A stretch of 64,000 bases of DNA. Source: an uncultured Verrucomicrobiota bacterium. Its GTDB lineage: Bacteria; Verrucomicrobiota; Verrucomicrobiia; Opitutales; Opitutaceae. The position numbers and the translations under genes are program-made. The stretch spans positions 1 through 64,000 of the forward strand of contig CAJXQX010000003.1 in assembly GCA_913058185.1 (NCBI GenBank), given 5' to 3'. Each line of letters opens with the position of its first letter. Position 1 is the stretch's first letter. Positions 37,952-62,855 of this stretch are shown in pieces. The notes under the pieces are model-generated. The model had not been told where the DNA came from. It worked only from the letters and a program-made list of their open reading frames with translations, and did no database searches.

Positions 37952-38018
37952 TCGGGCGTAAAGCCCGACCCACGCCGAATTGTTTCATGAAGTATGGTGG
38001 GTCGGGCTTTATGCCCGA
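37952..38018. repeat. Family E hairpin, copy 1
   Basis: TCGGGCGTAAAGCCCGACCC at 37952 and its inverse ending at 38018 pair over 22 bases with one mismatch. A second copy is at 63674-63741. It occupies the divergent spacer between the amidohydrolase and the aminomutase-like gene, so it may contribute to the promoter or mRNA leader of either. Confidence 0.75.
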
Positions 38019-38113
38019 CAGCGCCCAACAAGGGTTGCGCCGTCACCCGGATTTTGCTGCAGTGGAGATCTACGTTCGTGGCTGAAATTTCATTACTCCC
38101 CACCGTCCAACTC

Positions 38114-39454: not shown

Positions 39455-39482
39455 AACGGGAATCTCGAATCGCCGACTGATC

Positions 39483-45999: not shown

Positions 46000-46004
46000 G
46001 CGGA

Positions 46005-46811
46005 TTACAATGAGGGACGAATGTTTTCGGGTAATTCTGCGAGATCGCCTTGGAGGGTTTTGAGCCCGGCCTGCACGTAGGAACTGATGCCGACCACGTC
46101 GGCGCCGATATTGATAACGCGAACTCCTTCGGAGACCAAGTCGTCGAGCGGTGCGTAGCGGCCGGAAGCGATCAGAAACTTACCATTCGCGCGGGCGGCG
46201 GCGGCAACACGTTGGCGGGCTGCGATCACCTCGGGATCGGCGAGCTGGCCCACCTTGCCAATGCGATGGCTGAAGTCACCCGGACCAAACAGGAAGGCGT
46301 TGAAGCCGGGCACGGCCGCGATGGCTTCGACCTGTTCCAGTGCTTCGGGCGATTCGATCTGGAGAATGATGATACGTTCCTCGTTGGAGTTCCGCAGGTA
46401 GTCCTCGACAGGTTCGATGCAGAAATGACCGTCGATGTTACCACCATCCAAAGCCCGTTTCCCGAGAGGAAGGAATCGAGTCCATTCGACGATCTGGCAG
46501 GCTTCCTCAGCAGATTCGACGTGAGGCACGATGATACCGGCAGCCCCGGCTTCCAGCGGGCGCACATAGTCGCTGTATCCACCCTTGGATATGCGCACCA
46601 AGGCATCGATATTCTGGGTGCGGGCGGCTCGGACTTGATTCTCGATCGTGGCCCAATCGTTGGGCACATGTTCTTGGCAGAGCCAAACCCCATCGACGCC
46701 GCAGAGACCGGCCAATTCGATCGCCCGAGGATCGGCCAGATTGATTTTTAGAGTGGTAGCGATCTGGTTGTCGCGGATTTTTTGGAGGATGCGACTGGTG
46801 CGAAGTTTCAT
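46005..46811 (-). CDS. HpcH/HpaI-family class II aldolase
   Basis: A 268-residue aldolase of the 4-hydroxy-2-oxoheptanedioate/2-keto-3-deoxy-L-rhamnonate type. Catalytic His48 in CQEHVPND, Arg73 in LVRIS, metal ligand Glu153 in LQIESPE and Asp179 in FGPGDFSHRIG are all present. It would cleave a 2-keto-3-deoxy acid to pyruvate and an aldehyde, the last carbon-chain step of a non-phosphorylative sugar-acid route. It is the third gene of the five-gene operon, 27 bp after a Gfo/Idh gene and 5 bp before an SDR. There is no signal peptide. Exact substrate unknown. Confidence 0.92.
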   Translation of the reverse strand: MKLRTSRILQKIRDNQIATTLKINLADPRAIELAGLCGVDGVWLCQEHVPNDWATIENQVRAARTQNIDALVRISKGGYSDYVRPLEAGAAGIIVPHVESAEEACQIVEWTRFLPLGKRALDGGNIDGHFCIEPVEDYLRNSNEERIIILQIESPEALEQVEAIAAVPGFNAFLFGPGDFSHRIGKVGQLADPEVIAARQRVAAAARANGKFLIASGRYAPLDDLVSEGVRVINIGADVVGISSYVQAGLKTLQGDLAELPENIRPSL

Positions 46812-46838
46812 GATAGTTTGAAGTGAGTGATGGTAGGA

Positions 46839-47807
46839 TTAGTTGAAAGTGATTTCAGAAAGGGAAACGCGACGACCGTCTTGTTCGCGGCTGAGTTTAC
46901 CGGCGATGACGAGCTGCATCAGCTCGGCGGTTTCAGAAAAAGGGAAGGGGTGTTTGCCGGTGCGTAGGTATTCGGTGAACGCGACGAGCTGGGCTTTGAA
47001 AGCGAAGAAACTATCGGCCGAGGCGGTCTGGACCCGACCGGCGGTGCCGCAGAGCTGAAGGCAACCGAAGCCGCCGACCATATCCTGATTGGCAATCACC
47101 ACGATATCGACGCCGCGGCGATGGGTGAGGTGCACGACGTTGCGCTCGAGCGTGCCGGTGTTTTGGGCGGTAAGAAATCCGGGACCAAGAATGGGATAAA
47201 TTGCCTCGAGAGCGTGGATGCCGTAGGTCTCCCAGGACTTGGCGGTGGTGATGCTGACAAAACGAAGGTCACCAAGGTTTCGGGTCGAATGGCGGTAAGG
47301 CATGAATTCCTTGGTGTAGCGCATGCTGCTGGAGGACATGATGGCGCGACCGTCGGCGACCCACTGGTTGAAGGTGCGCAGATCGGGCGTGTTGTCGGCG
47401 AGTGGTTTGTCAATGAAGACCGGCACACCTGCTTCGACAAAAGGCCGGGCGCGTTCGACGTGTTCGCCCCCTATATCGGTGGCGATGATGACGGCATCCA
47501 CCTCACCGATCACCGCCTCGGGTGAGTCCACCACGTGAGGAATGAGTGAACACTTCGCGACGTGTTCGGCGGTGAATCCGCCTTCACCAGCACAATGGAT
47601 GTGGGTGACCTGCGCGCCCGGAATGGTGAGGCCCTCGGTGGGCTCTATGTTGAGGTAGGCCGGAATACCAGGGAAGGGGCACTCGGCAGTCATCGCTTCG
47701 CGGTCATAGCCGTTGAACATGGCACTCCACGAATAGGGGTGACCGTTGCCCGGCGTGGAACCGAGTATGGCGAGACGAATATTGGAGGGGTCGGGAACGA
47801 GACTCAT
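46839..47807 (-). CDS. Gfo/Idh/MocA-family oxidoreductase, diverged nucleotide site
   Basis: A 322-residue protein of the Gfo/Idh/MocA fold. The first strand RLAILGSTPGNGHPYSW lacks the usual GxGxxG and carries an inserted segment up to residue 60, seen in a PVC-rich subgroup. The active-site Lys is in VFIDKPLADN (DKP at 133-135 in place of EKP). The C-terminal beta sheet includes GGFGCLQLCGTAGRVQ. It may be an NAD-dependent sugar dehydrogenase or a member that has lost cofactor binding. It lies second in the five-gene operon, 51 bp after another Gfo/Idh gene; such pairs often form heteromers or act on consecutive steps. Confidence 0.87.
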   Translation of the reverse strand: MSLVPDPSNIRLAILGSTPGNGHPYSWSAMFNGYDREAMTAECPFPGIPAYLNIEPTEGLTIPGAQVTHIHCAGEGGFTAEHVAKCSLIPHVVDSPEAVIGEVDAVIIATDIGGEHVERARPFVEAGVPVFIDKPLADNTPDLRTFNQWVADGRAIMSSSSMRYTKEFMPYRHSTRNLGDLRFVSITTAKSWETYGIHALEAIYPILGPGFLTAQNTGTLERNVVHLTHRRGVDIVVIANQDMVGGFGCLQLCGTAGRVQTASADSFFAFKAQLVAFTEYLRTGKHPFPFSETAELMQLVIAGKLSREQDGRRVSLSEITFN

Positions 47808-47858
47808 AAGACGCTTACTCGATGGTGAAAGGGGGATTTTGGCCGGAGCGACGAGAGT

Positions 47859-48881
47859 CTAAGCAGGGGAATTGGAAAACAGATCGTGGCAGGAAATGCG
47901 GCGACCGGAGTCGGCCGAGGTGATGGCGGCGAGATTGAAACGCAGCGTTTGCGCAGCGGCCGAAAGCGAACAGAGCCGCGCGGGCTGGCTCTCAATTTGA
48001 TCGAGGAAGGCGTGAGCTTGCGCTTCGAAATGGGAGTCGCGCTCGGGCACGGCGCCTTCGTGCCAGGTCCATTCGGTTTCCCCGAGTTGAAGGATGCCCC
48101 AGCGTTGTTGGTGGTATTCGATTTTTACCGAACCCAGGGCCGTGTGAAATTGCAGGGTGTTTTCGGACGGAGCCTGAAACTGATTCAGCGCGTAGTTGAC
48201 CAGAATATCGCCGTGTCGGGCTGAGATGTTGACCGTGTCTTCGATGGTGACCTCAGGCAGCACCTGATGGGCACAGTCACAGTAGAGCGTGTCAGTCGGG
48301 CCGATGACGCTCTCGACGAAGTTCGCCGTGTGCGTGATCGCATCTTGGATGACGCCGCCGCCCGTGTGTCGGTGGGCGTAGTAGGTTTTACTGTAGTGGA
48401 CGGTGTGAGCCGGACGCCCGCTGGGGAAATGACCGCCGCCGGTGAAGGTCACGTGTTTGATCGGACCCAATGAGCCCTTCTTTACAAAGGAACGAGCCGC
48501 TTGCAGGAATGGATAGACATGCTGCACGTAGGCGACCGAGACCTCTCGGTCCGATTCCTGATGCGCTCGGAGTAAATCAGCGACGCCGGTGAAATCGGCG
48601 GCGAGCGGTTTTTCAATCAGCACGTGTTTGCCGGCCGCGAGTGCGGCGAGGGCCATGGGCACGTGCAATTGCGGAGGTGTGCAGATCACGACCGCATCGA
48701 TTTCCGGAGTCAGTGCTGTTTCGAAGTCCGCGCTTGTCTCCACATCGTAGGTTTGAGCGATGGTGTCGCGAAGCGTTTCGCTGGGGTCACAGCCACTCAC
48801 CGACGCGCGGCCCGTTTGGAGAAAGCACCGCAAATGGCGTTCGCCGATACTGCCGCAGCCTACAACTAGAACTGAATGCAT
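47859..48881 (-). CDS. Gfo/Idh/MocA-family oxidoreductase
   Basis: A 340-residue NAD(P)-dependent dehydrogenase with the standard nucleotide motif VVGCGSIGERH (6-16) and catalytic EKP at 90-92 (HVLIEKPLAADF). The C-terminal sheet domain follows, with GGGVIQDAITHTANFVESV, the usual acid/base region. It is the first gene of a minus-strand operon of five (two Gfo/Idh, HpaI aldolase, two SDRs) and is divergent from the GntR regulator at 49001, which very likely controls it. It probably oxidises a sugar or sugar acid. Confidence 0.92.
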   Translation of the reverse strand: MHSVLVVGCGSIGERHLRCFLQTGRASVSGCDPSETLRDTIAQTYDVETSADFETALTPEIDAVVICTPPQLHVPMALAALAAGKHVLIEKPLAADFTGVADLLRAHQESDREVSVAYVQHVYPFLQAARSFVKKGSLGPIKHVTFTGGGHFPSGRPAHTVHYSKTYYAHRHTGGGVIQDAITHTANFVESVIGPTDTLYCDCAHQVLPEVTIEDTVNISARHGDILVNYALNQFQAPSENTLQFHTALGSVKIEYHQQRWGILQLGETEWTWHEGAVPERDSHFEAQAHAFLDQIESQPARLCSLSAAAQTLRFNLAAITSADSGRRISCHDLFSNSPA

Positions 48882-48955: not shown

Positions 48956-48984
48956 TTGCATCGAAGTCTCTAATTTGTATACAC
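48956..48984 (+). promoter_or_regulatory. Promoter with overlapping GntR/FadR-type operator
   Basis: TTGCAT (48956-48961) and TATACA (48978-48983) with a 16-bp spacer form a good sigma-70 promoter for the GntR gene, whose ATG is at 49001. The -10 box is part of TTTGTATACAC, centred on the perfect palindrome TGTATACA, which matches the GT-N-AC core recognised by FadR-type GntR proteins. The site is about 95 bp upstream of the divergent Gfo/Idh operon, so binding there could control both directions. Confidence 0.5.
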
Positions 48985-49000: not shown

Positions 49001-49750
49001 ATGAAAAGTGTTAACTCAGACGTCGCATACGACCACATCCGCTCGCAGATCCTAGGAGGAAGCTATGCGCCCGGTCATGCGCTCATGACGGAATCCTTGG
49101 CCGAGGAGATTGGCGTCAGTCGCACGCCGGTGCGGGATGCTTTACGGAAACTGGAGGCGGATGGCCTCGTGGTGATTCAACCGCGATTGGGCGCGCGCGT
49201 GAGAAAATTTGAAGCCAACGAGTTTCGGGAGATGTGCGAATTGCGGCTGGCGTTGGAGGCCCAGACGGCGGGCCTTGCGGCCAAGAATCGCACGGCGGTC
49301 GATCTGCATGAGATCGAAGCGCCGCTGATCGCCATGCGGCAACTTACGGCGGAATTGGAGACCGTCCGGTCGCGAGTCCCCAAGATCAATAAATTGATGC
49401 TGGAGGACGTGCGGTTTCATATTGCCATCATTTCCGCCGCCAAGAACGAACTGATGAAGAAGGAAATTCTAAGGCTGCATCTGATCCACCGCGTGACGCA
49501 GACGTCGGTGGGGCAGAATATTCTAGGATCAGATACACGGGAAGCGCAGGTCGCTAATGGTAGCCGTGTGTTGGCCGAGCATGAGGCAATTTATGCGGCG
49601 ATCGCGAAGGGTGACGCCAAGGCCGCCAAATTCGCGATGGAGCAACACATTGAAAACCTCATTGAAATATCGCTTCGCCGGATAGCTCAACAAGAGCGGG
49701 AACGTTTTGCCCGCAGCCTGACCGCAGATGAACTCGTTTATACCGCCTAA
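49001..49750 (+). CDS. GntR-family regulator, FadR/FCD type
   Basis: A 249-residue regulator with an N-terminal winged helix (AYDHIRSQILGGSYAPGHALMTESLAEEIGVSRTPVRDALRKLEADGLV) and a C-terminal all-helical FCD ligand domain (about 80-230). The FCD metal-binding His pattern is suggested by VRFHIAIISAAKNE and VLAEHEAIYAAI. FCD regulators usually respond to small organic acids such as sugar acids. It is divergent from the Gfo/Idh-aldolase-SDR operon, with a plausible operator overlapping its own promoter, so it most likely represses that operon and itself. The next gene downstream (49897) is separated by a family G repeat. Confidence 0.93.
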   Translation: MKSVNSDVAYDHIRSQILGGSYAPGHALMTESLAEEIGVSRTPVRDALRKLEADGLVVIQPRLGARVRKFEANEFREMCELRLALEAQTAGLAAKNRTAVDLHEIEAPLIAMRQLTAELETVRSRVPKINKLMLEDVRFHIAIISAAKNELMKKEILRLHLIHRVTQTSVGQNILGSDTREAQVANGSRVLAEHEAIYAAIAKGDAKAAKFAMEQHIENLIEISLRRIAQQERERFARSLTADELVYTA

Positions 49751-49896: not shown

Positions 49897-51354
49897 ATGA
49901 AATTACCCCGCTCGATTCTGATTGTGATACTCACAACGGTAGCTGCCACCGTGATGGCAGAGACGCTCGACCTGGGCTCAAAACGCGAGCTCATGGTGGA
50001 CCACTGGTTGATCGATAAGTTGAGTGATGCGGAGCTGCGACTGCAAACGCCGCGCAATGAAGGCGTGTCCTTCGCCTTTGACCGATCCCACGAAGGAGCC
50101 TTTAGCGGCTACGTGTCGATCGTGACGCTACCGGATGATGGCGGATTTCGGGCGTATTATCGGGGTTTACCGGTGGCGGTGCGGGCTGGATCAGTCGAAG
50201 AAGTCACCGCCTATGCGGAATCGTCGGATGGGATTACGTGGTCCAAACCAATCGATAATGTGGCGTTGATCGGTATGCCGGAGGTGACCCACAATCTTTC
50301 GATCTTCTATGATTCCAAACCGGGCGTGCCGATGGATGAGCAGTGGAAGGGCATCGGAGGACTCAACGATGGCGGGTTGGTGCGGGTGGTGTCGGCGGAC
50401 GGTCTCACCTGGCGGAAGTTGATGGGCAATACGCCGATGATGCCAAAAATACCAGAGTCGGAGAAGATGTATCGTTACGACTCCCAGAACTTGGCCTTCT
50501 GGTCAGAGTCGGAACAGCAGTATGTGTGTTACTTTCGCCACGTGAGGGCGGTTGAGGGAATGGGCCCGCGCGTGCGTTTGATTGGCCGAGCGACGAGTCC
50601 GGATTTCATCCATTGGACCGATCATGGGGAGATGGACTTTCATCGGGCCGATGGCTCGGCCGCGCCGGTGGAACATCTCTACACCAACCAAACGGGTCCC
50701 TACATGCGGGCGCCTCACCTCTACGTCGCGATCGCGGCCCGGTTCATGCCCGGGCGTCAGGTTTTGACCGACGCAGAAGCGGAGGAGGTGGGAGTGAATC
50801 CCGATTACTTCAATGACATCTCGGATAGCGTATTGATGACGACCCGAGGGGGCACCGTTTATGATCGCACCTTCATGGCAGGATTTGCTCGGCCCGGAAT
50901 CGGGCTCAGTAATTGGACTTCGCGCTCGAACTACCCGGCGCTGAATGTCATCCAAACGGGCCCGGCGGAAATGTCGTTTTTTGTGCAGAAAGCTTACGGT
51001 CAACCGGATCACCGCATGGAACGCTACTCCCTGCGATTGGACGGTTTTGCATCACTCAACGCCGGCTATGCTGGTGGCGAGATGACAACCAGGCCGTTCC
51101 GTTTTTTAGGCAATGAACTGGAAATCAACTACGCCACCTCGGCGGCCGGCAGCCTGCGGTTCGAGCTCCAAGATGAAGCCGGCCACGTATTCCCCGGATT
51201 CGGACTGTCGAACTCACGAGAGATTATCGGTGATCAAATATCACGGGTCGTCGCATGGACCGGCGGCACCAGTCTGAAGGCGTTGGCCGGCAAGACCGTG
51301 CGGCTGCGGGTGGTGATGAAAGATGCGGATCTGTTTTCCCTCCAGTTTCGATGA
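49897..51354 (+). CDS. Secreted glycosidase-like five-bladed propeller protein
   Basis: A 485-residue protein from the ATG at 49897 with a signal peptide (MKLPRSILIVILTTVAATVMA). The body resembles the GH32/GH43/GH-J-like propellers found in planctomycetes and verrucomicrobia: LDLGSKRELMVDHWLIDKL, YYRGLPV, AESSDGITWSKP, SPDFIHWTDHGEMDF. It ends in a small beta-sandwich closing with LRVVMKDADLFSLQFR. The paralogue at 54904 ends with almost the same pattern (LKIHFKNAKLYTFQFR). It opens a tight six-gene operon of exported proteins and overlaps the next gene by four bases. Catalytic activity is inferred from the fold; the acidic residues cannot be assigned with certainty. Confidence 0.8.
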   Translation: MKLPRSILIVILTTVAATVMAETLDLGSKRELMVDHWLIDKLSDAELRLQTPRNEGVSFAFDRSHEGAFSGYVSIVTLPDDGGFRAYYRGLPVAVRAGSVEEVTAYAESSDGITWSKPIDNVALIGMPEVTHNLSIFYDSKPGVPMDEQWKGIGGLNDGGLVRVVSADGLTWRKLMGNTPMMPKIPESEKMYRYDSQNLAFWSESEQQYVCYFRHVRAVEGMGPRVRLIGRATSPDFIHWTDHGEMDFHRADGSAAPVEHLYTNQTGPYMRAPHLYVAIAARFMPGRQVLTDAEAEEVGVNPDYFNDISDSVLMTTRGGTVYDRTFMAGFARPGIGLSNWTSRSNYPALNVIQTGPAEMSFFVQKAYGQPDHRMERYSLRLDGFASLNAGYAGGEMTTRPFRFLGNELEINYATSAAGSLRFELQDEAGHVFPGFGLSNSREIIGDQISRVVAWTGGTSLKALAGKTVRLRVVMKDADLFSLQFR

Positions 51355-52205
51355 ATTTGCTGAAATACGGAATTCTCAACCGATGGGTGGTGGGGTGGAT
51401 CTGGGCATTCTCAAGTCTGGTTTCGGCGGCTGAACGCAGCCCTGAGTTAACTCTCATGGAAACACCGTCAGGGGTGGAGTATGGCGTGTGGGGGTATGCT
51501 TCGGAGTCTCCCTCTCCGGTGTTGATCAATTTGGGTAACACGATCGAAGGCGTATTGGGTAGCGCCTATTTTCGTCAGTCCGGTAACGCCCTGGCCGAAT
51601 TGGGTTATCTCAGTGTATCCATCGATATTCCCGGACACGGGAAACGACATCGGGAAGGCGAACCGGATGATTTGTCCGTATGGCGTTATCGATTGGAACG
51701 GGGAGAGGATTTTGTGGCGGAGAACAACCGACGTTTGTCGGAAGTGGTCGACCATCTCATTACAGCTGGCCTAGCGGATTCGGATCGTATCGCAATCTGC
51801 GGAACGTCCCGGGGCGGTTTTTTGGCGCTGCATTTTGCAGCCCATGATCGCCGGGTAAAGGCGGTCGCGGCTTATGCTCCGGTGACCGACCTGATGGTGT
51901 TGCGAGAATTTAAGGGCGCTGACAATGTGCCTCTGGTGGCCAAACTCTCAGTGGTGCGCTTGGCGAACCGGTTGGCGACTCAGTCGGTTTGGATCATAAT
52001 CGGTGATCGTGATGAGCGGGTGGGCACGGATGAATCCATTGCGGTGGTCCGGGCGATTACGGCGGAGGCATTGCAGCGTGGAGAGCCGGGGGAGGTAGAG
52101 TTACATGTTTTGCCCGAGCCGAAAGGGCACACCACGCCGCAGGGTGCGGCGGATATGGCGGCAGAATGGATTGATCGACAGATCAGAATTAAAACGAAGG
52201 AATAA
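51351..52205 (+). CDS. Exported alpha/beta hydrolase
   Basis: A 284-residue hydrolase from the ATG at 51351, overlapping the preceding stop by ATGA. A signal peptide or anchor occupies residues 8-27. The nucleophile is Ser153 in CGTSRGGFLAL, the acid lies in IIGDRDERVG and the His in EPKGHTTPQG. The DIPGHGKRHREGE region is typical of serine esterases/peptidase-like hydrolases of the S9/dienelactone type. It would remove acyl or other ester groups from the substrate of the operon. The next gene follows after 2 bp. Confidence 0.87.
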   Translation: MNLLKYGILNRWVVGWIWAFSSLVSAAERSPELTLMETPSGVEYGVWGYASESPSPVLINLGNTIEGVLGSAYFRQSGNALAELGYLSVSIDIPGHGKRHREGEPDDLSVWRYRLERGEDFVAENNRRLSEVVDHLITAGLADSDRIAICGTSRGGFLALHFAAHDRRVKAVAAYAPVTDLMVLREFKGADNVPLVAKLSVVRLANRLATQSVWIIIGDRDERVGTDESIAVVRAITAEALQRGEPGEVELHVLPEPKGHTTPQGAADMAAEWIDRQIRIKTKE

Positions 52206-52207
52206 CC

Positions 52208-53692
52208 ATGGAATCTCGAAGAAAATTCATGCAGCAAATGATGGTGGGAGGCGCCGCGGCGTTGGCGCCGCCGTTGTGGGCGAAGGGTGATTTGGCATTG
52301 GGATATCAACGACCGGAAGATCATCCGATCCGGCGGCATTTTTCTGATTTCAGCCGGATGCCATCTCAGGCGAAGATTGACCAGATTGAACGGGTGACCT
52401 CGGCCTCCCGGGCCCATCCCAGCAATATCTTGGTTTGCATGCCAAAGGTGACGCCCGAAGCGATTCGGCAGGTTCGGGTGGCGGACTTCGATGGCATGGA
52501 TCAGTTCTCCGATAATTTCGGACTGAAATTTGAATCGATCACGGATTTCTTTGATAATGAAAATTCGATCACAACTTCGGGCAGCCATTTAGCGGCGCAG
52601 AGTATCCGATATGCGGCGAGTGGTGATCAGGCGGCGTTGACGGCGGCGCGGCGGGCTTTCGCTTCGCTCCGCAAGATCTTCGAATTTGGGGTCGAGCAGG
52701 GACTCCCGGGATTTATGGGGAAACCCTACCATTTCAAATATTCCACGCATACAACCGGTGACCAATACCTCCACACCCTGTGGGGATTGTGGAGTTTCCA
52801 TGCAGTCGCTTCGAAGCGGGAGCGCGGTGAAATCAAGGAGATGATCGTCGCGATTGCGGACCATCAAATCGCGGTCGACTTTACCCAGTATTATAAAGAT
52901 GGGCGGAGTTGGAACATGCGGGAAGATACGACCGACTACAACGCGATCATGGCTGCGTTGGTGGCGTCGGCTTATAAACTGACCGGCGAACAGAAATACT
53001 TGGATTCGTATGAATTTGTGATGGAAGGCAGTCGTTGGCTGACGCATCGCCGGTTGGATGGTATCATTGCCGAGATCAAGGCGGGCACATGGGAAATTCC
53101 GCCTTGGGAAGTGTTGGTGGGAGATAGTAAACGGCCCGGAGAATTCGCGCATTGGGAGCAGATTCAGCACTGCCAATTCACGGCGATCGCGGCATCGATT
53201 ATTCGCGAATGCGTGCCTGAACATTTTAGCCAACAACAGTTGAGTGATGTCGTGGGGTTTTGGTGGGAAGACAATGTGGTCGGCTTCGACCGGGAGTATT
53301 GGGGGTATCTTTATTGGTTTTTGGTTTCCGCGGAAGATCGCAGTTGGCGATCGTTTCCTCGGACGGAGAGAGTTCCGCGAGATCAGTGGTTTGGCGGTCA
53401 TCCGATGCTCTCGTTCTCCTCGCCCTGGATCTACGGGGATTGTTTGGCGCGGTTCCAATGGACGGCGATGGTGGTGGCCCGACATTGTCCCCCCAAACGA
53501 GCGGAGGCCGTGGCCTTCGCGAGGGAGACGTTGGAGCGGTTGCAACCTCATCATCTCCTTTGGATTTCCGACCCGGACGGAAAGCAAATCCCGCCGGAAT
53601 TGCGTTACTTTACCGAATTTCTTAGCAGTGAAGTCCCCGAGTGCATGATTGCATCCTACTGGGAAGGTCGGCGTCTCAACCTTTGGTCCTAA
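52208..53692 (+). CDS. Exported alpha/alpha-toroid-like protein of unknown function
   Basis: A 494-residue protein starting MESRRKFMQQMMVGGAAALAPPLWA, a Tat-like signal with SRRKFM at 3-8. The rest is rich in amphipathic helices with aromatic residues, e.g. DQYLHTLWGLWSFHAVASKRE, TTDYNAIMAALVASAYKLTGEQKYLDSYEFVMEGSRW and EYWGYLYWFLVSAEDRSW, a pattern like the six-hairpin toroids of polysaccharide lyases and GH88/GH105-type enzymes. No catalytic signature can be named. It sits 2 bp after the hydrolase gene and 11 bp before the sialidase-like gene in the six-gene operon, so a role in glycan breakdown is likely, with lyase or hydrolase activity unproven. Confidence 0.75.
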   Translation: MESRRKFMQQMMVGGAAALAPPLWAKGDLALGYQRPEDHPIRRHFSDFSRMPSQAKIDQIERVTSASRAHPSNILVCMPKVTPEAIRQVRVADFDGMDQFSDNFGLKFESITDFFDNENSITTSGSHLAAQSIRYAASGDQAALTAARRAFASLRKIFEFGVEQGLPGFMGKPYHFKYSTHTTGDQYLHTLWGLWSFHAVASKRERGEIKEMIVAIADHQIAVDFTQYYKDGRSWNMREDTTDYNAIMAALVASAYKLTGEQKYLDSYEFVMEGSRWLTHRRLDGIIAEIKAGTWEIPPWEVLVGDSKRPGEFAHWEQIQHCQFTAIAASIIRECVPEHFSQQQLSDVVGFWWEDNVVGFDREYWGYLYWFLVSAEDRSWRSFPRTERVPRDQWFGGHPMLSFSSPWIYGDCLARFQWTAMVVARHCPPKRAEAVAFARETLERLQPHHLLWISDPDGKQIPPELRYFTEFLSSEVPECMIASYWEGRRLNLWS

Positions 53693-53703
53693 AGCCATCC
53701 AAT

Positions 53704-54885
53704 ATGAAAATCCCCTCAACCCTTGTTCGAGTCACTGCCCTGCTTTTTCTGGGAGTGGCCGTCGCGGTGACCCAAGGCGCTGACGCTCCGATGGGCGTTC
53801 GAAAAGTGAAGGACATTGTCATTTATGAGGACGACGGGTTTCACGCGGCATTTCCTTCGGTGGTGAAGCGTCCGGACGGAGAAGTCTGGGTGGCGTTTCG
53901 CCGCGCGCCTAACCGATTATTGTGGGGCGAAACGCACAACAATCACGTGGATCCCAATAGCTACCTGATGATGGTGCGTTCTTCGGATGGGGTGACGTTC
54001 TCTCCTGAGCCGGAATTGATTTACGCGGACGCTTGGGGCGGTTCGCAGGATCCGTGTATGTTGCAGCTACGTGACGGCACCTTGCTCTGCATGACTTATG
54101 GGTGGACGTTCGTGCGGCCTGAAGGCATCGCGAACCTGAAGGCTCCGGTGAGGAACGTAGGTTCGGGAGCGATATTTAACGGTGGGTATTATCTGCGCTC
54201 GGAGGATGGCGGAGAGCATTGGCAGGGCCCGATGCATGCGCCGCACATCGAACCAGAGTTGCTGCGTGATCCCTTCGGCGAACCGATCACGGCCTATAAT
54301 CGGGGCGCGGCCGTGGAGGGTAAGGATGGACGACTCTTCTGGGTTGCGGCGGCGACCGATCGGATTTCGCCGCATCGCACCTCCAATCACCTGATGATCT
54401 CGGAGGATAAGGGACTGTCGTGGGAATATTCGACGTCAGTGGCGGTCGACGACGAGGTAACCTTTAACGAAGCTTCGATCTATGAAACGCCGCAGGGTGA
54501 TCTAGTGGCATTTTTGCGCACGGCTAATTTCGAAGACCAAGCCTGTATCGCCCGCTCCACCGATGGTGGCCGTAGTTTCGAACCGTGGCAGGGCATGGGT
54601 TGGCAAGGTCACCCGCTGCACGCCACGCGGCTGCCCGATGATCGGGTCTTATTGGTTTATGGATACCGGCACGCTCCGATGGGTATTCGGGCCCGCGTGC
54701 TCAATGCCGAGTGCACCGATTTTGCGACGGCCCCTGAGATTGTGCTTCGCGATGATGGCACGACTTCGGATCTCGGTTATCCGTGGTCGGTGATGTTGGA
54801 TGATAAGCGCGTTTTGGTAACCTATTATATTAACGTCGACGGCGGCCTGCAGCACATCGCGGGCACGATCTTGGCACTGGATTAA
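53704..54885 (+). CDS. Exported sialidase/neuraminidase-like (BNR) protein
   Basis: A 393-residue protein from the ATG at 53704 with a signal peptide (residues 1-25). It is a six-bladed propeller with four Asp-box repeats: SSDGVTF, SEDGGEHW, SEDKGLSW and STDGGRSF. The early segment FHAAFPSVVKRPDGEVWVAFRRAP and the late VLLVYGYRHAPMGIRARVL match the exo-alpha-sialidase fold, which also includes non-sialidase glycosidases and L-rhamnose-alpha-1,4-glucuronate-type enzymes. It would act outside the cytoplasm on the operon's glycan. Gaps of 11 and 18 bp link it to its neighbours. Confidence 0.88.
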   Translation: MKIPSTLVRVTALLFLGVAVAVTQGADAPMGVRKVKDIVIYEDDGFHAAFPSVVKRPDGEVWVAFRRAPNRLLWGETHNNHVDPNSYLMMVRSSDGVTFSPEPELIYADAWGGSQDPCMLQLRDGTLLCMTYGWTFVRPEGIANLKAPVRNVGSGAIFNGGYYLRSEDGGEHWQGPMHAPHIEPELLRDPFGEPITAYNRGAAVEGKDGRLFWVAAATDRISPHRTSNHLMISEDKGLSWEYSTSVAVDDEVTFNEASIYETPQGDLVAFLRTANFEDQACIARSTDGGRSFEPWQGMGWQGHPLHATRLPDDRVLLVYGYRHAPMGIRARVLNAECTDFATAPEIVLRDDGTTSDLGYPWSVMLDDKRVLVTYYINVDGGLQHIAGTILALD

Positions 54886-54903
54886 ACTTCTTCAAAATCT
54901 CCC

Positions 54904-56424
54904 ATGAAAAGACCTCAAATTCGAGCTGTGCTGGTAGCGGTGTTGTTAGTAGCAGCTCTACGCCCTGATATCATGGCGGCCGGGCTCAACCCGATCGGCC
55001 AGCAACGTCAGTTCTTCTTCGATGATGCTATTGTCGAAACGCTAGAGAACACCCGCCGGAAGTTAAACCCGGCGTTAAAACTGGCGGACAATCCCGTGAT
55101 CAAACGGGACAAACCCTGGGAAGGGCCGGACATGCGTTTGGCGTGGGTGATTTTTGATCAGCGCATGGGTAAGTTTCGCATGCGTTATTCCTCCGGGGTA
55201 TTTCGGGCGGCGGGGCGGGACGAGAAAGGGGACGTGATCGTAAAGGGAGAATATGATGAGGAGGCAGCCAAGCGCGTGGTGTGCGAGGCCTTCTCCGATG
55301 ACGGCGTGAACTGGGTCAAACCCGAGTTGGGCTTGGTTGAGTTCGAGGGATCAACCGCGAACAACATCCTGCCCGATTCCGCGCTCTATTATTACCTCTT
55401 TGAAGATTTGCATGACCCCGACCCGGCCAAACGCTACAAGGCACAGGTGCGCACGGGCACCTTCGACGGCGATGGCATGACCTATGAGATGTATTACTCG
55501 GCTGACGCTTACACCTGGACGGCTTTCGGCGGTAATCCGATCATCGACACCGGCACGCAACATGGCCGCTGGGGGCCATCGGATTTCATGGGTTGGGATC
55601 CTATTCGGGAGACCTATGCGACGCACATGGAGAATAATTTCCACATGCATTCACCCACTCATCACCGGCGTTCGATTGGCCGGGCGGAGAGTCCGGACAT
55701 GATCAATTGGACGGAACCGGAAACAATCATCGTGGTGGACGATGAAGACTACCCCGATACGGAGTTCTATCACTTTCCCGCTATCGCGCATGAGGGCTGG
55801 TATATGGGATTCCTGTGGATCTTTTCGACGACCAATACTCAGCACGAACCACACTTTGCGTTTAGTCGGGATGGAATTAACTACGATCGCACGTATCGAG
55901 AGCCGATCATTCGTCGCGGGGACAACGGGCGGTTTGATGCCGTATCGGTTTATGCCAACCGCCCGATCATTCACGGCGATGAAGTGCTCTGTTACTACAC
56001 GGGCACAAATTGGCGTTCGCCCGAACAGTTGGTGGTGCTGGGCGATAAGGCGGAAGCTAAGATCGGCTTAGCCAAGCTACCGCTTGATGGGTTCGTATCT
56101 CTCGAAGGCGCGCGCCATGAATTCAGTCGCGTTACGACACGCACGTTTACCTTTGAAGGGGAAAAGTTGGAGCTGAACCTCCAGGCGGCATTGCAGCAAT
56201 GGGGCGCCGAACCTTGCGAAGTGAAGGTGGAAATCCTCAACGGGCGCCATGCCCCGATCGAGGGCTTCGCTTTTGATGACGCCGATACGCTCTCGACCAC
56301 CGCGGTTGATCACGTGGTGACCTGGCGTGGCGGTGATGCGGATGTCTCTGCTTTAGCCGGTCAATCGATTCGTCTAAAAATCCATTTCAAGAACGCCAAA
56401 CTCTACACGTTTCAATTCCGATGA
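54904..56424 (+). CDS. Secreted glycosidase-like five-bladed propeller protein, paralogue
   Basis: A 506-residue protein with a signal peptide (residues 1-26). It is of the same family as the first gene of the operon: RQFFFDDAIVETLENTRRKL at the start of the mature protein, SPDMINWTEPETI in the propeller, LPLDGFVSLEGA at the module border, and the closing DVSALAGQSIRLKIHFKNAKLYTFQFR. The propeller has conserved acidic and aromatic residues (WEGPDMRLAW, YPDTEFYHFPAIAHEGWYMGFLW) suggestive of GH43/GH32-like active sites. The two paralogues flank the hydrolase, toroid and sialidase genes in one operon, so they probably act on different linkages of one glycan. It overlaps the next gene by four bases. 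Confidence 0.82.
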   Translation: MKRPQIRAVLVAVLLVAALRPDIMAAGLNPIGQQRQFFFDDAIVETLENTRRKLNPALKLADNPVIKRDKPWEGPDMRLAWVIFDQRMGKFRMRYSSGVFRAAGRDEKGDVIVKGEYDEEAAKRVVCEAFSDDGVNWVKPELGLVEFEGSTANNILPDSALYYYLFEDLHDPDPAKRYKAQVRTGTFDGDGMTYEMYYSADAYTWTAFGGNPIIDTGTQHGRWGPSDFMGWDPIRETYATHMENNFHMHSPTHHRRSIGRAESPDMINWTEPETIIVVDDEDYPDTEFYHFPAIAHEGWYMGFLWIFSTTNTQHEPHFAFSRDGINYDRTYREPIIRRGDNGRFDAVSVYANRPIIHGDEVLCYYTGTNWRSPEQLVVLGDKAEAKIGLAKLPLDGFVSLEGARHEFSRVTTRTFTFEGEKLELNLQAALQQWGAEPCEVKVEILNGRHAPIEGFAFDDADTLSTTAVDHVVTWRGGDADVSALAGQSIRLKIHFKNAKLYTFQFR

Positions 56425-58121
56425 AAGGCCGTCTGATTACCGCCGCCGCGCTCGTTTGGGTCGCGGGACTTTCCGCTACGGAGCGTTTGCTCTTCGACGA
56501 CTACTACCAGCATCCGCGGGTCAACGAGCAGTATGCCCAAGGCGTGGCGCGAGGTGGTGCCGATCTGCGTGGACTCTCCAACTTCTATGCGCCCCATGCC
56601 ACGGGGATTCCGAATGGCACGTTTGTTTTCGCGGAGTTGATCGCCGAGAAATGGGCCACGGAAGTGAGCGACCAACCGATCTCGAGCGAATTGTTGGAGG
56701 GGGTGGGTGGTTACATGTTGGTGTGTCCGGTGCGCGAGGAGTTGGGCGGCCGGGCAAATTTGACCGAGCATGAGGCGGATATCCTGGAAGCATTTGTGGC
56801 CAACGGCGGCAGCCTGATGATGGTGGCCAACAGTGTTTCGGATCCGGATAAGATCGGTTTCGACTTTGCCGGCATGAATCTCATCGGGGCCCGCTTCGGT
56901 GCTCAGTTTTTACCGACCCAGACAGATACCATTTCGGTGCCGATCGCGCCGGATCATCCGGTGTTTGATGGCGTGTCGGATATCATCTTTGGCAATGGGG
57001 CGACCATCGCGATTGCGGAGAAACCATCGCTTGATGCCGTGGTGTTGATGGCCAGTCATCGCGAAGGCGCAGAAGGACCGGTCGCGGTGTTGATCACCCA
57101 TGGGAAGGGCAAGGTGCTGATGCTCGGAGATGCCGGCACCTTGGGGAATGCCCACGCGTTTCGCGGCGATACGGGTCACGCGGAGGGTTTGCGCCAAATG
57201 ATGTTTGCGCTCCTGCCGGACGGACCGATGCCGCATTACGGTTGGATAACGGGGACATCGCTGAGGGTGGAGGTGCGCGAAGAACAGGTGGTGTCCGGTT
57301 ATCCGGAATTGATGGAGGTGTTTCGGCTCCCGCATCCGGTGGGCACTCAAGTATTTTCCAGCGGCATGCGGCAGATTGATTTGGAGGCGTCGGGCGCATC
57401 AGCGACCGCGGCGTCGAGTAAGGATTTTGTATCAGTCGTGGTCGAGCGGTCGGGCGAGTTCTTATTGATGGTCGGGGCCGCCTCAGGCGGTGGTTTTGCG
57501 GCCGATTGGCAGATCAGTGATCAGGGGATGGCGACCAAATTGATGCCCAATGGTCGACTGTTAGAGGGTGAGATGCCGCGTGATCAGGATGGGGTTAGTT
57601 GGTCGCCGGTATTGATGAATGAAATCATCGGCGGTCCGTTGCGGACTTACGCGCAGCCCGGTGAAACGTGGTCCGCGCAGACGTTGGTTCGTTGGCCGCA
57701 GTTGCAACTGGGTGCGGTGGCGCGCCATGAGTCGAAGGCGGCTACATTTCACTTTGTCGGCGAAGAGGATTACGCGGGGGAGCCGTGTTATCGAATTAAG
57801 CGGATCATCGAATTGGACGGTGGCAACTGGTCGCTGGGTGATCTGGTGGATGCAGAGTATGCGGTTTATATGGAATCGTTAGGTCTTACGGTGCAGGCCG
57901 GTGGAATGCTCACGGTATCGGAGTATTGGATTAGTCGGACCACGCAGTTGCCCGTGCATACGAAGGTAAGCACGACGGCGACGGTGTGGTGGGAAGATCC
58001 CCGATTCCCCGCGAAACACGTAGGGAGTCACGATTCCAAGAATTACGAAAATTGGGAGCGGACGAATTTTGTGGTGACCTACGGCCGGGTGCTTGAGGCG
58101 GATTTTGCGGACGGGCGGTGA
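56421..58121 (+). CDS. Exported GATase-like protein of unknown function
   Basis: A 566-residue protein, start overlapping the previous stop by ATGA, with a signal peptide (residues 1-19). Residues about 20-280 look like a class I glutamine-amidotransferase-like Rossmann fold of the DUF4350/ThuA kind (LFDDYYQHPRVNEQYA, LEAFVANGGSLMMVANSV, LITHGKGKVLMLGDAGTLGN). The Cys nucleophile expected in active amidotransferases is not apparent. The C-terminal 280 residues are beta-rich (lipocalin- or jelly-roll-like: CYRIKRIIELDGGNWSLGDLVDAEY). It is the last gene of the six-gene secreted operon. I do not recognise a named family; a carbohydrate-binding or structural role is possible. Confidence 0.75.
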   Translation: MKGRLITAAALVWVAGLSATERLLFDDYYQHPRVNEQYAQGVARGGADLRGLSNFYAPHATGIPNGTFVFAELIAEKWATEVSDQPISSELLEGVGGYMLVCPVREELGGRANLTEHEADILEAFVANGGSLMMVANSVSDPDKIGFDFAGMNLIGARFGAQFLPTQTDTISVPIAPDHPVFDGVSDIIFGNGATIAIAEKPSLDAVVLMASHREGAEGPVAVLITHGKGKVLMLGDAGTLGNAHAFRGDTGHAEGLRQMMFALLPDGPMPHYGWITGTSLRVEVREEQVVSGYPELMEVFRLPHPVGTQVFSSGMRQIDLEASGASATAASSKDFVSVVVERSGEFLLMVGAASGGGFAADWQISDQGMATKLMPNGRLLEGEMPRDQDGVSWSPVLMNEIIGGPLRTYAQPGETWSAQTLVRWPQLQLGAVARHESKAATFHFVGEEDYAGEPCYRIKRIIELDGGNWSLGDLVDAEYAVYMESLGLTVQAGGMLTVSEYWISRTTQLPVHTKVSTTATVWWEDPRFPAKHVGSHDSKNYENWERTNFVVTYGRVLEADFADGR

Positions 58122-58164: not shown

Positions 58165-58234
58165 GGGGTCACGTCGGAAAAAGTTAACGGCTCCCGCTTC
58201 GCGGGATTCGTTAACTTTTTAACGACATGACCCC
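58165..58234. repeat. Family D compound palindrome, copy 2
   Basis: GGGGTCACGTCG (58165-58176) and CGACATGACCCC (58223-58234) with AAAAAGTTAACG/CGTTAACTTTTT inside and a central TCCCGC/GCGGGA hairpin. Outer parts are identical to the copy at 24985, while the inner hairpin differs. It lies in the 314-bp convergent spacer after the six-gene operon and may end transcription from both sides. Confidence 0.78.
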
Positions 58235-59353: not shown

Positions 59354-60334
59354 TTAGGAGGTCGTGGGATGTTGCCAAACGACGTTATGGTGCGGCGTGC
59401 CGTTGAGATGATGAGCGATGTTTTCGGCGATCACACCCCAGCGATAGTGCATGGTTTCGTGGGTGGGTTTATGCGGTGTCATGACCACGTTGTCCAACTC
59501 GTGGAAGGGAGCGGTGGCTGGATGGCAGGGCTGATCGTCGGTCGGGTAGGTCCACCAAACATCGAGTCCCGCGCCACCGATGCGCCGCTCGGCCAATGCG
59601 GTGTAGAGTGCGGCTTCATTGATGACAGGACCGCGACCGACATTGATGATGAAGGCCGATGCTTTCATGAGGGTGAGCTCAGTGGTGCTGATCAAATCAA
59701 TCGTGCCCGCGGCGCTGGGGATTGCGATGATCACAAAGTCCGCCGACGGCAAGTGCATCGCCAATTCAGCCAACGGGCCAAACGCCGTGAGGTTGAGATC
59801 GGCAGCGCGTTCAGGTGAAGCGGAGCGGTTAAGCACGGTGACCTTCATGTCCAAAAACTGTCCCCAACGCACCAGCTCGCGTCCAATGTGACCGAGACCT
59901 AGCACGAGTAAATTCTTGCCGCTGACCTCGGGGAGGAAGGGGCGTTCGGGAGTCCAGTTACCTTGCCGGAGATTGCGGTCGAGTTTGAGCACGCCCTGTT
60001 GCAAGTTGAGCATGTGCGCGAAAGCCCGTTCCGCGACGGCGCGTTCGTGACCGTAGACGTTACACAGGGTGCTACCGGAAGGCAGGACTGGGATGCTGAT
60101 GCCATCGACCCCAGCTCCCACACTCTGCACGAGGAGGGGGCGCTGAGTGGACGGAACGTGCCACTCGGATTTGAAGAGACCTGATACCACGGCGTCCAGA
60201 TTCGGCAGCAGAGCCCGCACCGCTTCGTCGTCGAGGTGATCGAGTTCGATCAGCTTATGGGGCACCGTGAGTCGTGCGGCGAGAGCAGGCGCAAATCTGG
60301 CGTCGATTGCGATACGAACGGGATTGGTGGACAT
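59354..60334 (-). CDS. D-2-hydroxyacid dehydrogenase-like protein
   Basis: A 326-residue protein with a Rossmann motif GLGHIGRE (146-153), the substrate/catalytic Arg234 in NVGRGPVINE and catalytic His288 in MTPHKPTHE. The third member of the usual triad, a Glu about 27 residues after the Arg, is replaced: the segment reads GLDVWWTYPTDDQP with aromatic residues there. This recalls formate-dehydrogenase-like relatives, which have Gln at that point, so the reaction may not be the standard 2-keto acid reduction. It starts 18 bp after the enolase-superfamily gene, so it probably works on the product of that enzyme. Confidence 0.88.
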   Translation of the reverse strand: MSTNPVRIAIDARFAPALAARLTVPHKLIELDHLDDEAVRALLPNLDAVVSGLFKSEWHVPSTQRPLLVQSVGAGVDGISIPVLPSGSTLCNVYGHERAVAERAFAHMLNLQQGVLKLDRNLRQGNWTPERPFLPEVSGKNLLVLGLGHIGRELVRWGQFLDMKVTVLNRSASPERAADLNLTAFGPLAELAMHLPSADFVIIAIPSAAGTIDLISTTELTLMKASAFIINVGRGPVINEAALYTALAERRIGGAGLDVWWTYPTDDQPCHPATAPFHELDNVVMTPHKPTHETMHYRWGVIAENIAHHLNGTPHHNVVWQHPTTS

Positions 60335-60352
60335 GGATATCGTGGATTGGGT

Positions 60353-61588
60353 TTATTCGAACAGGGCTTCGCCGGGAGCGAGATGGGCGCGGCAGACATC
60401 GAGGTCGAGCTCCACCCCGAGACCCGGCGCGTCGGATAGCGGAATATGGCCGTCGCGGAAGAGTGGCACATCACGTCGCACGTATTGGCCAATCCAGGGG
60501 GTTTCGATGAAGTGGTATTCAACGCCGAGAAAGCTGCGGCAGGTGGCGCCGACATTAGCCGCGGCGATGGTGGCGAGAGCTCCTCCGTTACCGTGGAAGG
60601 CGGCCGCACGGTGGTGGACTTCGGCGTATTGCGCGATTTTTTGCAATTCGTGCATGCCGCCACAAAACATCACGTCTGGATGAATGATATCGCAGGCCTG
60701 ATGATCAATGAATTGACGGGCCTGTTCTAGGCAGAGCATCTCGCCGATACAGATGGGAATGGGACTGCCAGCGCGCACCTCCGCGCAGGAATCGGGATTC
60801 ACAATCGGGGTCGGATCCTCCAGCCAAAGTAGATTGAGCGGCTCGAGGGCTTGGGCTAGCCGGATGGCGTCGGGCACGTTGTATTGCATGTGGCAATCGG
60901 CACAGAGCTCGAAGTCGGGTCCAGCGGTTTCGCGGACCACGGTGAGGCGTTCCACGATGCGGTTGATTTGAGTCAGGGTGAGGCTGCGGTTCCACACGTC
61001 GGTGTTCGCATCCGGGGCCATGAAATCGATGTCGAACTTGAGTTGGGAAAACCCTTCGGCGCAGCTGGACTCAGCCATCTCCTCCCAGGCATCGAGGTTG
61101 GTCACGTCGGCGGGCGTGCTGCGGTCGAGGTAGACTTTGACCTGATCGCGAAAACGACCACCGAGGAGATTGTAGGCCGGGGTTCCGAGTGTCTTGCCGA
61201 TAAGATCACAGAGCGCGATTTCGACTCCGCTGACCGCCCAGATCGGAGTTCCCCAAGGGGTAGCGGTCGGCGAACAAAACGGGACGGCGTTCATGCCGGG
61301 CGTCATCTCGCCGAAGCGAGACGTGGCAGCATGGGGAGCGGCGGTGCCGTAGAGCATCTCGGACACAATCGCGTTCACCGCGAATACATCTCGACCTTCG
61401 AAGTAGGCGTGCAGGTATTCGATGCCGCGGCGAATGCCCATGAAATCGTCGCATTCCCCAAGGCCGAACTGTCCGTTGTCAGCGTCGATGCGCACGATGA
61501 TTTTGGAAATTTTGGGTTCGTCTTCGCCACCGACGCCGTGCTCGCGGGGGCCACGAAGGCGCATCATGCGGATAGAGGATATTTTCAT
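60353..61588 (-). CDS. Enolase-superfamily dehydratase (mandelate racemase/MLE type)
   Basis: A 411-residue enzyme with the full MR-subgroup site: Lys184-x-Asp186 in LKFDID, metal ligands Asp231 (CADCHMQ), Glu257 (WLEDPTP) and Glu283 (CIGEMLC), Asp305 in IIHPDVMFCGG and His332 in AAFHGNGG. Members with the His-Asp dyad dehydrate sugar acids (mannonate, galactonate, fuconate and similar) to 2-keto-3-deoxy acids. The 2-hydroxyacid dehydrogenase follows 18 bp later, and a DHDPS-family aldolase gene is divergent at 61933, so the set fits sugar-acid dehydration and aldol cleavage. The acid used cannot be read from sequence. Confidence 0.93.
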   Translation of the reverse strand: MKISSIRMMRLRGPREHGVGGEDEPKISKIIVRIDADNGQFGLGECDDFMGIRRGIEYLHAYFEGRDVFAVNAIVSEMLYGTAAPHAATSRFGEMTPGMNAVPFCSPTATPWGTPIWAVSGVEIALCDLIGKTLGTPAYNLLGGRFRDQVKVYLDRSTPADVTNLDAWEEMAESSCAEGFSQLKFDIDFMAPDANTDVWNRSLTLTQINRIVERLTVVRETAGPDFELCADCHMQYNVPDAIRLAQALEPLNLLWLEDPTPIVNPDSCAEVRAGSPIPICIGEMLCLEQARQFIDHQACDIIHPDVMFCGGMHELQKIAQYAEVHHRAAAFHGNGGALATIAAANVGATCRSFLGVEYHFIETPWIGQYVRRDVPLFRDGHIPLSDAPGLGVELDLDVCRAHLAPGEALFE

Positions 61589-61932: not shown

Positions 61933-62838
61933 ATGTCATCACCCCGTGAAATCAAACTCTGGTCAGCATTGCCGACCCCGTTGCACGCCGACCTATCGGT
62001 GGATGATGCCGCCGTCGCGCGAACGATCACCGCATCCATTGCCGGAGGCATGACCGGCGTATTTCTGGCCGGGACGTGCGGAGAAGGCCCGTGGTTGCCG
62101 GAACGCGAAAAGGAGCGACTGATCAGAACAGCCAAAGCCACGGCGGGTGATCGGTTGAAACTGGCGGCGCAGGTCTCGGATAACTCCGTGCCGCGGGTGC
62201 TGGATAATATTTCGCGAGTAGCAGCAGCGGGCGCCGACATTGCGGTGATGGCCTCGCCTGCGACCTTCATGAATGCGACCCCGGACCGGGTGGTAGCGTT
62301 GTTTACGGACGTGGTGAACGCGAGTGCGTTGCCCATGTCGATTTACGATCTTGGGGCGCACCGACCGGTGATGATTCCGGTCGAGCGACTGCGAGACGTT
62401 TATGGACTGCCAAATGTGGTGATGGTTAAGGACAGCTCGGGTGATCCCGCGCGTCGAGCTGAGGCCATGGCGGTTCGGGACACTCATCCCGGCTTGCAGC
62501 TCTTCAACGGCGACGAGTTTCGTTGCGTCGAGTATCTTGAGGCTGGCTATGACGGTTGCATGTTCGGTGGGGCCGTTGCGATGATGCCGCAGCTGCGGCA
62601 AATTGTTGATTTAGTGGCGAAAGGGGACGGGGCGGCGGCGCGACTCGCTGACGCGGAGATGCGCCGGGTGCTGTTTGGTATTTATGGCGGTAAGTCGATT
62701 GCGTGTTGGTTGACGGGATTGAAGCACTGCTTGGTGCAGCAAGGGCTGTTTGAGTCTTCGGCCTCATTTTTTGAGTATCCGCTCACGGCTGAGTGTCGGG
62801 AGTTTATCGAAACCTACGCCGCGGAAAGTGCGGCATAA
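61933..62838 (+). CDS. Dihydrodipicolinate-synthase-family lyase
   Basis: A 301-residue TIM-barrel class I aldolase of the DHDPS/NAL/KDG-aldolase family. The Schiff-base Lys166 in VVMVKDSSG, Tyr138 in MSIYDLG and the GTCGEG substrate loop (48-52, with Cys where most have Thr) are present. It would cleave or form a 2-keto-3-deoxy acid to pyruvate plus an aldehyde, consistent with the enolase-type dehydratase 344 bp away on the opposite strand. The SDR gene follows 17 bp downstream. There is no signal peptide. The start at 61933 lies right behind an inverted repeat. Confidence 0.92.
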   Translation: MSSPREIKLWSALPTPLHADLSVDDAAVARTITASIAGGMTGVFLAGTCGEGPWLPEREKERLIRTAKATAGDRLKLAAQVSDNSVPRVLDNISRVAAAGADIAVMASPATFMNATPDRVVALFTDVVNASALPMSIYDLGAHRPVMIPVERLRDVYGLPNVVMVKDSSGDPARRAEAMAVRDTHPGLQLFNGDEFRCVEYLEAGYDGCMFGGAVAMMPQLRQIVDLVAKGDGAAARLADAEMRRVLFGIYGGKSIACWLTGLKHCLVQQGLFESSASFFEYPLTAECREFIETYAAESAA

Positions 62839-62855
62839 CCCCGGGGAATCTTGCG

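Follow-up and report, generated by a model that had tools for sequence, protein, structure and literature searches.

Two kinds of gene cluster come closest to the locus described here. Carbohydrate utilization (CUT) loci with TonB receptors were reported by He et al. 2017 (PMC5615132) from Verrucomicrobia of fresh water; in these, exported enzymes, a sugar transporter and monosaccharide genes are grouped with a TonB receptor. In the SusC/SusD polysaccharide utilization loci (PULs) of Bacteroidota, exported glycan enzymes are clustered with a regulator and an importer. The present analysis concerns a predicted six-gene operon and its surroundings in a 64,000-nucleotide stretch, henceforth referred to as the window, from contig C3 of an uncultured, aquatic-type bacterium of the Opitutaceae (Verrucomicrobiota). 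It is reasonably probable that this operon trims an acidic, decorated polysaccharide in the periplasm or outside the cell and supplies a sugar-acid route. Gene order, protein families, the predicted fold of C, conservation and gene association are observations, whereas the enzymatic activities, the substrate, the sequence in which the steps follow one another and operator binding are inferred. The operon comprises the following genes.

A, 49897..51354, + strand: predicted exported propeller-plus-sandwich protein, probable glycosidase; weak profile links to glycoside hydrolase (GH) families GH130, GH32 and GH117, low-confidence model.
B, 51351..52205, + strand: predicted exported alpha/beta hydrolase, probable carbohydrate esterase; Pfam Peptidase_S9, 48.3 bits.
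C, 52208..53692, + strand: (alpha/alpha)6 toroid, predicted to be exported by twin-arginine translocation (Tat), probable oligosaccharide hydrolase; AlphaFold2 model.
D, 53704..54885, + strand: predicted exported BNR_2 propeller, close relative of Dfer_1899 (PDB 5hx0); Pfam, 57.8 bits.
E, 54904..56424, + strand: second A-family member, paralogue of A.
F, 56421..58121, + strand: predicted exported protein, N half DUF4350-like under the cut-off, C half without assignment.

All six frames lie on the + strand between 49897 and 58121. A and B, and likewise E and F, overlap by ATGA, and the remaining gaps measure 2, 11 and 18 bp with the start of D set at ATG 53704. Export-like N-termini, judged by eye, are of the Sec type in A, B, D, E and F and of the Tat type in C (RRKFMQ). 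The string of six exported-protein genes reported in a preliminary description of this DNA was confirmed in its frames, gaps and both overlaps, and by eye in its signals. No Pfam or NCBIfam match was obtained for A, C or E up to E 0.1; B matched AXE1 at 21.6 bits (cut-off 21) in addition to Peptidase_S9.

Conservation was assessed in family sets of 200 genomes and phylum sets of 288 or 276 genomes. In a congener, G391 (locus L111), the gene order of the window is retained for A, B, D, E and F, at 63-93% identity, and both overlaps are kept. The colinearity extends over the flanks to a sugar-isomerase-like gene (window 41561), the symporter, short-chain dehydrogenase/reductase (SDR) genes and a Gfo/Idh pair, and downstream to a HEAT gene, a hydroxyacid dehydrogenase, a dehydratase and the last SDR. 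Ratios of nonsynonymous to synonymous substitution (dN/dS, Nei-Gojobori, against G391) were 0.067 for A, 0.121 for B, 0.112 for D, 0.044 for E and 0.125 for F, the values for A and B being rough because dS is above 2. Judged by these ratios, the five genes are under purifying selection. With five genes colinear in a congener, dN/dS of 0.04-0.13 and both overlaps kept, the arrangement of the operon is, on the evidence of gene order and codons, not due to chance. Synteny was also found to reach beyond a single strain, as G391 is colinear and other C-bearing loci were mapped.

The glycan-use role put forward in the preliminary description is favored by the surroundings, in which sugar-acid catabolism genes, a GntR-FCD regulator and a sodium:solute symporter (SSF) are found, with two sulfatases further upstream. 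In the proposed scheme, the propellers A and E, the BNR propeller D and the esterase B would remove exo-linked sugars and ester groups from one decorated, probably acidic glycan, and the toroid hydrolase C, with the acid pair E118/D185, would cut the resulting short oligosaccharides. F would be an accessory protein. The sugars would be taken in by the SSF symporter, oxidized in the cytoplasm by Gfo/Idh and SDR enzymes and then dehydrated by an enzyme of the enolase superfamily; at the end of this non-phosphorylating sugar-acid route, aldolases of the HpcH or DapA type would cleave the product. The GntR-FCD regulator may sense the sugar acid and bind TGTATACA.

The pairing of A and E as propeller-type paralogues, proposed earlier, was borne out by BLASTP (E 3e-19, 96 of 423 aligned columns identical). 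The A family was detected in 54/276 phylum genomes at E <= 1e-20, and with E as query a relative was found in 52/200 family genomes at E <= 1e-20. Four strong members are present in the genome of the window: the two in the operon, one on C26 and one on C3 at 66166-67740, beyond the window and 8 kb downstream of the operon (L036 2103-3749); a weak fifth lies on C12. Foldseek searches with the AlphaFold model of A returned 62 PDB matches at E <= 0.001 (best E 3.3e-8; model pLDDT, the predicted local distance difference test, 55), and among the 50 of these that were listed nearly all are propeller glycosidases (GH43, 32, 93, 130, 117). VIA also returned propeller glycosidases, with Z about 11 for this low-confidence model. 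Because the model is of low confidence, these matches were used for fold class only. Among the faint profile matches of A, the best (E 7.5e-7, 58 positions) was to a 1,2-beta-oligomannan phosphorylase, and D139, D168, D236 and D382 are invariant in small A-family alignments.

Thirteen A-family regions were fetched, most of them selected because their frames exceed the family in length, and nine of the 12 long ones were Pfam-scanned. The family was present in all 13, in L163 within a short frame of 377 aa. BNR_2 is N-terminal to the A-family part in four of the nine scanned proteins (G254, G066, G187 and G012), SASA carbohydrate esterase occupies that position in one (G039), and a LamG-type insert lies within the A-family part in two (G061 and G208, the latter under the cut-off); Pfam gave no other domain in two. 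The LamG-type domain is inserted near profile position 417 (L159 1242-3473; L160 2057-4171, under the cut-off). Since the fusion partners correspond in type to D and B, they hint that these proteins serve one substrate. The LamG-type inserts of two relatives, together with the poor model of A and the lack of a recognized catalytic set, would also suit glycan-binding surface proteins without enzymatic activity. Such a role for A and E is considered unlikely, as the listed fold neighbors are nearly all propeller glycosidases and the four aspartates are invariant in the small alignments.

For C, a protein of 494 residues, structure prediction was run and upheld the toroid call of the preliminary description: the AlphaFold2 model from 20 sequences is an (alpha/alpha)6 toroid with pLDDT 86.6 and a predicted template modelling score (pTM) of 0.88. 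This fold is common to GH76, GH88, GH105 and sugar epimerases. In VIA, the top matches were a Listeria protein and MmpH, both at Z 20.6 (root-mean-square deviation 3.6 and 3.4 over 305 and 293 residues, respectively), followed by GH76 mannanases (Z 20.1) and epimerases (best Z 19.8), all of these being tied; GH88/GH105 scored about 18. In the model, the fold of C thus appears clear, and hydrolases are not separated from epimerases by VIA. Profiles of C (A1, 17 sequences; A3, 20 sequences) matched PDB sequences at noise level only, with best E 0.062 (GH76) and 0.16. In the wide family of 17 sequences, the window included, E118, G125, G168, Q186 and A255 show no variation, and D185 is almost invariant; E118 and D185 are the likely acid pair. 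A closer set of C sequences has no invariant histidine, H181 and H449 being nearly so.

Foldseek fills its first 12 PDB rows for C with structures of sugar 2-epimerases/isomerases (E no better than 1.8e-5), and C without a signal in some genomes is as expected of a small-molecule enzyme. C could accordingly be an epimerase/isomerase resembling N-acylglucosamine 2-epimerase that converts a released sugar before uptake. Enzymes of that type use a histidine pair, whereas the residues kept in the wide family of C are E118, Q186 and, nearly, D185, and the closer set is without an invariant histidine. As VIA also gives a tie that includes the hydrolases MmpH and GH76, an epimerase role is regarded as doubtful, and an oligosaccharide hydrolase remains the preferred assignment for C.

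D matched BNR_2 in Pfam at 57.8 bits and PDB 5hx0 at E 2.1e-176 over residues 26-391. The close homology with the Dfer_1899 family (PDB 5hx0, Dyadobacter) thus spans almost the whole of D; the structure is from Bacteroidota, and its title reads 'unknown function'; a search for literature on Dfer_1899 found none. Matches of D to characterized sialidases were at E 0.13 or weaker, the relation to these being that of BNR_2 at the Pfam level. The earlier designation of D as sialidase-like therefore stands as regards the BNR_2 class; beyond it, with the best sialidase match at E 0.13 and a close relative without known function, a sialidase role is conjectural. At E <= 1e-60, D was found in 1/288 phylum genomes, the window's own; since the D of G391 is 82% identical, G391 was evidently outside this draw. 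F matched DUF4350 over residues 64-248 at 27.0 bits, under the Pfam gathering cut-off of 30.4, so that the description of F as glutamine amidotransferase-like keeps the DUF4350 match but not a score above cut-off. F was detected in 8/200 family genomes at E <= 1e-6, and its profile had no PDB match up to E 1.

C was detected in 26/200 family genomes at E <= 1e-10, of which 21 carry near-complete versions at E <= 1e-190. Partner genes were counted on a map of the retrieved flanks of these 21 genomes, window included. At least one partner gene lies by C in 12/21: an A-family gene in eight (nine with a more distant gene in G382), B in six, an adjacent C paralogue in seven, an enolase-type dehydratase in eight, parts of the SDR/HpcH/Gfo block in six and a TonB-dependent receptor in five. 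The order in G271 is GntR, TonB receptor, A, A-like gene, B, C, C paralogue, dehydratase and hydroxyacid dehydrogenase. L073 has a separate unit of C, dehydratase, hydroxyacid dehydrogenase and B, which is inserted next to unrelated genes; the rest of the locus is missing there.

No match to GntR, HpcH, DapA or C was found in the 20-kb stretch of G391, whose C orthologue (62%) lies on another contig. A 4367-base contig of G408 carries A, E and F next to one another, none of B, C and D intervening. Because C is missing in G391 and A, E and F adjoin in G408, the operon is, as far as these gene orders tell, a mosaic with an A/E/F core and swappable B, C and D. The six-gene unit of the preliminary description holds for the five genes colinear in G391, but B, C and D come and go. 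A more radical division, in which an A-B-C sugar-acid module and a D-E-F module stand side by side by chance, would account for the absence of D and F from the G271 locus and the other mapped C-bearing loci, for the absence of C and GntR from the colinear stretch of G391 and for the single occurrence of D among the 288 phylum genomes. This division is improbable, as A-B-D-E-F are contiguous in G391 with the same overlaps and flanks, A-E-F are contiguous on the short G408 contig, A and E are paralogues, and the A family is fused elsewhere to BNR_2 and esterase domains. A single, mosaic glycan-trimming operon is preferred to two unrelated modules.

The operon is accompanied by the following features.

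42400..43890, - strand: sodium:solute symporter, probable inner-membrane importer; Pfam SSF 90 bits, 96% in G391.
44438..48881, - strand: divergent block of two SDRs, an HpcH/HpaI aldolase and two Gfo/Idh-type oxidoreductases.
48975..48984, strand not assigned: operator-like site TTGTATACAC, separated from the GntR start by 16 bp.
49001..49750, + strand: GntR-FCD regulator of the sugar-acid type; Pfam GntR 65.4 and FCD 67.1 bits.
58178..58221, strand not assigned: long hairpin, A- and T-rich at its ends, just 3' of the operon, read directly.
59354..61588, - strand: 2-hydroxyacid dehydrogenase and enolase-superfamily sugar-acid dehydratase.
61933..63626, + strand: DapA-type lyase/aldolase and SDR.

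Parts of the divergent block adjoin GntR or a TonB receptor in relatives. The HpcH/HpaI aldolase scored best as 2-dehydro-3-deoxyglucarate aldolase, and the enolase-superfamily dehydratase is of the gluconate/galactonate/mannonate sort. A HEAT-repeat gene lies 3' of the operon, before the 2-hydroxyacid dehydrogenase. The sugar cannot be named, because none of the flank genes scanned with NCBIfam (all except the symporter, the hydroxyacid dehydrogenase and the last SDR) exceeded a curated cut-off. The hairpin, a possible bidirectional terminator or repeat trace, was absent from the list of + strand terminator-like sites. Such sites numbered 14 against 9.2 +/- 4.0 expected, which was unhelpful, and promoter-like sites across the region showed no excess (7 against 5.5 +/- 2.5 in shuffles).

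Both the GntR helix-turn-helix and the FCD domain of the FCD subfamily are present in the regulator, and relatives at 46-54% occur in five related loci (L031, L070, L080, L116 and L117). A conserved TGTATACA site accompanies the GntR-FCD gene. When up to two mismatches to TTGTATACAA were allowed (background 23 matches in 175,500 bases), matches ended 16-18 bp before the GntR match in all four GFO2-GntR stretches, namely those of the window, L070, L080 and L117. Of the sites found elsewhere, L031 has one, lying between GntR and the TonB receptor, L080 likewise has one, L084 has an exact match next to its receptor, and L116 has two. No TTGTATACAA-like site was found in the GFO2-A gap of G391, where there is no GntR, upstream of the L031 GntR or between the L070 GntR and receptor. 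We take the TTGTATACAA-type motif to resemble the operators of hexuronate GntR regulators.

A sialic-acid locus, with D as sialidase, the DapA-type gene as NanA lyase and the Gfo/Idh as a YjhC-like dehydrogenase, is very improbable. In its favor are the BNR_2 domain of D, the one A-family fusion with SASA and the 67.7 bits of the DapA-type gene to N-acetylneuraminate lyase. Against it, the DapA-type gene falls well short of both NanA cut-offs (281 and 382 bits), scores higher as dapA (88.5 bits, also under cut-off) and has no counterpart in the colinear stretch of G391, and D reaches no better than E 0.13 with a sialidase; the reading was set aside on these grounds, NanK/NanE genes not having been searched for.

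Further upstream, a class III aminotransferase and an MlrC-type (M81) gene form a pair at 37994-40991. The pair also stands beside the A-B-C locus in L061 and L077 (69% and 56%), which suggests that pair and locus share an island. The sulfatases lie at 2108-3532 and 14034-15356. Between 7364 and 24831 are two PSCyt1/PSCyt2/PSD1 genes, each with a downstream DUF1501 gene, the second pair being split by the sulfatase at 14034-15356, and a PSCyt3/PSD gene with a DUF1552 gene; this is a planctomycete-type neighborhood. A 1469-aa protein at 25232-29641 carries DUF7133 and cytochrome c, with ThuA-, GDSL- and HEAT-like stretches under the cut-off.

Several results weigh against the glycan-trimming role proposed for the operon, or against parts of it. 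To our knowledge, no activity is known for A, C, D, E or F. The AlphaFold model of A is weak (pLDDT 55.3), and F, placed as an accessory protein in the scheme, has no assigned role. D and the BNR_2 domains fused to A-family proteins are alike only at the Pfam level, with best E 0.014. Between GntR and A in the window there is no operator-like site, so that control of the operon by GntR is conjectural. No partner was seen in the retrieved flank of 9/21 C orthologues; in four of these nine (G391, G395, G410 and G432) a contig end is no more than 600 bp away from C. A Tat-like motif was found in 16/21 C orthologues by regular expression and counted in 15, the match in G342 being discounted by eye as upstream of the likely start. 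C may act inside the cell in the six genomes of 21 where the Tat signal is missing, and these versions suggest a small substrate. In hhalign comparisons of C with GH88/105 (13 usable Opitutaceae sequences from 20 loci, six loci being left out for stop codons in the fixed-flank cut and one as empty), probabilities of 1.8% and 0.9% were obtained, and hence no detectable homology. A simple stand-in role of C for GH88/105 was not upheld, since 10/26 C carriers also have GH88/105. The genome of the window has no GH88/GH105 (PF07470) match at E <= 1e-20, and 39/61 family genomes have one; within this set the match was found in 0/6 C carriers compared to 39/55 others (Fisher p 0.0013, kinship uncorrected). 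Mutual exclusion fails, and at best a weak tendency is left.

Verrucomicrobiota are important polysaccharide degraders, and part of their machinery is without a family name. The locus offers testable proteins in A/E, C and D, which fusions, synteny and a conserved regulator site link to one sugar-acid pathway, and for a close relative of D a crystal structure, though no function, is already available. The type of system is a known one; what is new is the proteins, with families A/E and C lying outside Pfam and NCBIfam. Listings from literature searches included nothing resembling this operon, though no claim of its absence from print is made. It is tentatively suggested, at somewhat less than an even chance, that A/E and C are two new carbohydrate-active enzyme families that form a standard part of glycan digestion in Verrucomicrobiota and are used as interchangeable cassettes in SusD-less loci leading into a non-phosphorylating sugar-acid pathway.

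At the level of single proteins, the fold class of A as modelled at low confidence, and by homology that of E, may be that of the five-bladed propeller glycosidases (GH43/GH32/GH130/GH117/GH93); unlike those families, A/E are without a Pfam or NCBIfam family model. The predicted toroid of C resembles that of the GH88/GH105 unsaturated uronyl hydrolases (VIA Z about 18), yet this fold is common to many other families. The putative acids are 67 residues apart in C and 60 in GH88/GH105 (D115N of 3vxd and D175N of 3ank, per their titles). C also differs from GH88/GH105 in sequence, and no polysaccharide lyase was recognized in the operon by Pfam or NCBIfam.

At the level of the locus, the clustering of exported glycan enzymes with a regulator and an importer is shared with the SusC/SusD PULs of Bacteroidota, from which the window differs in that its whole genome has no PF07980 SusD (0 matches, Bacteroides control positive; other SusD Pfam models not searched). 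TonB-barrel PF00593 had 12 matches in the genome and none on contig C3. The absence of PUL markers asserted in the preliminary description consequently holds for the window but not for its relatives, as a TonB-dependent receptor is present in 5/21 C-orthologue loci by tblastn (by Pfam in L031 alone, PF00593 at 83.6 bits). Because of these receptors, the relatives are regarded as CUT-type loci, and they resemble the CUT loci of PMC5615132 in their exported enzymes, sugar transporter and monosaccharide genes. As assigned by protein family, an SSF transporter, GntR-FCD, Gfo/Idh, SDR, dehydratase and aldolase are found in the cluster. The window differs from CUT loci in that its contig has no TonB-dependent receptor and that A, C, E and F are outside named GH families. 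The best match to the G271 receptor elsewhere in the genome of the window is 30% over part of the protein, and a distant receptor may serve the locus, since the draft consists of 159 contigs. From its gene content, the locus is best read as a TonB-receptor-less variant of the CUT loci of freshwater Verrucomicrobia that would feed a non-phosphorylating sugar-acid pathway.

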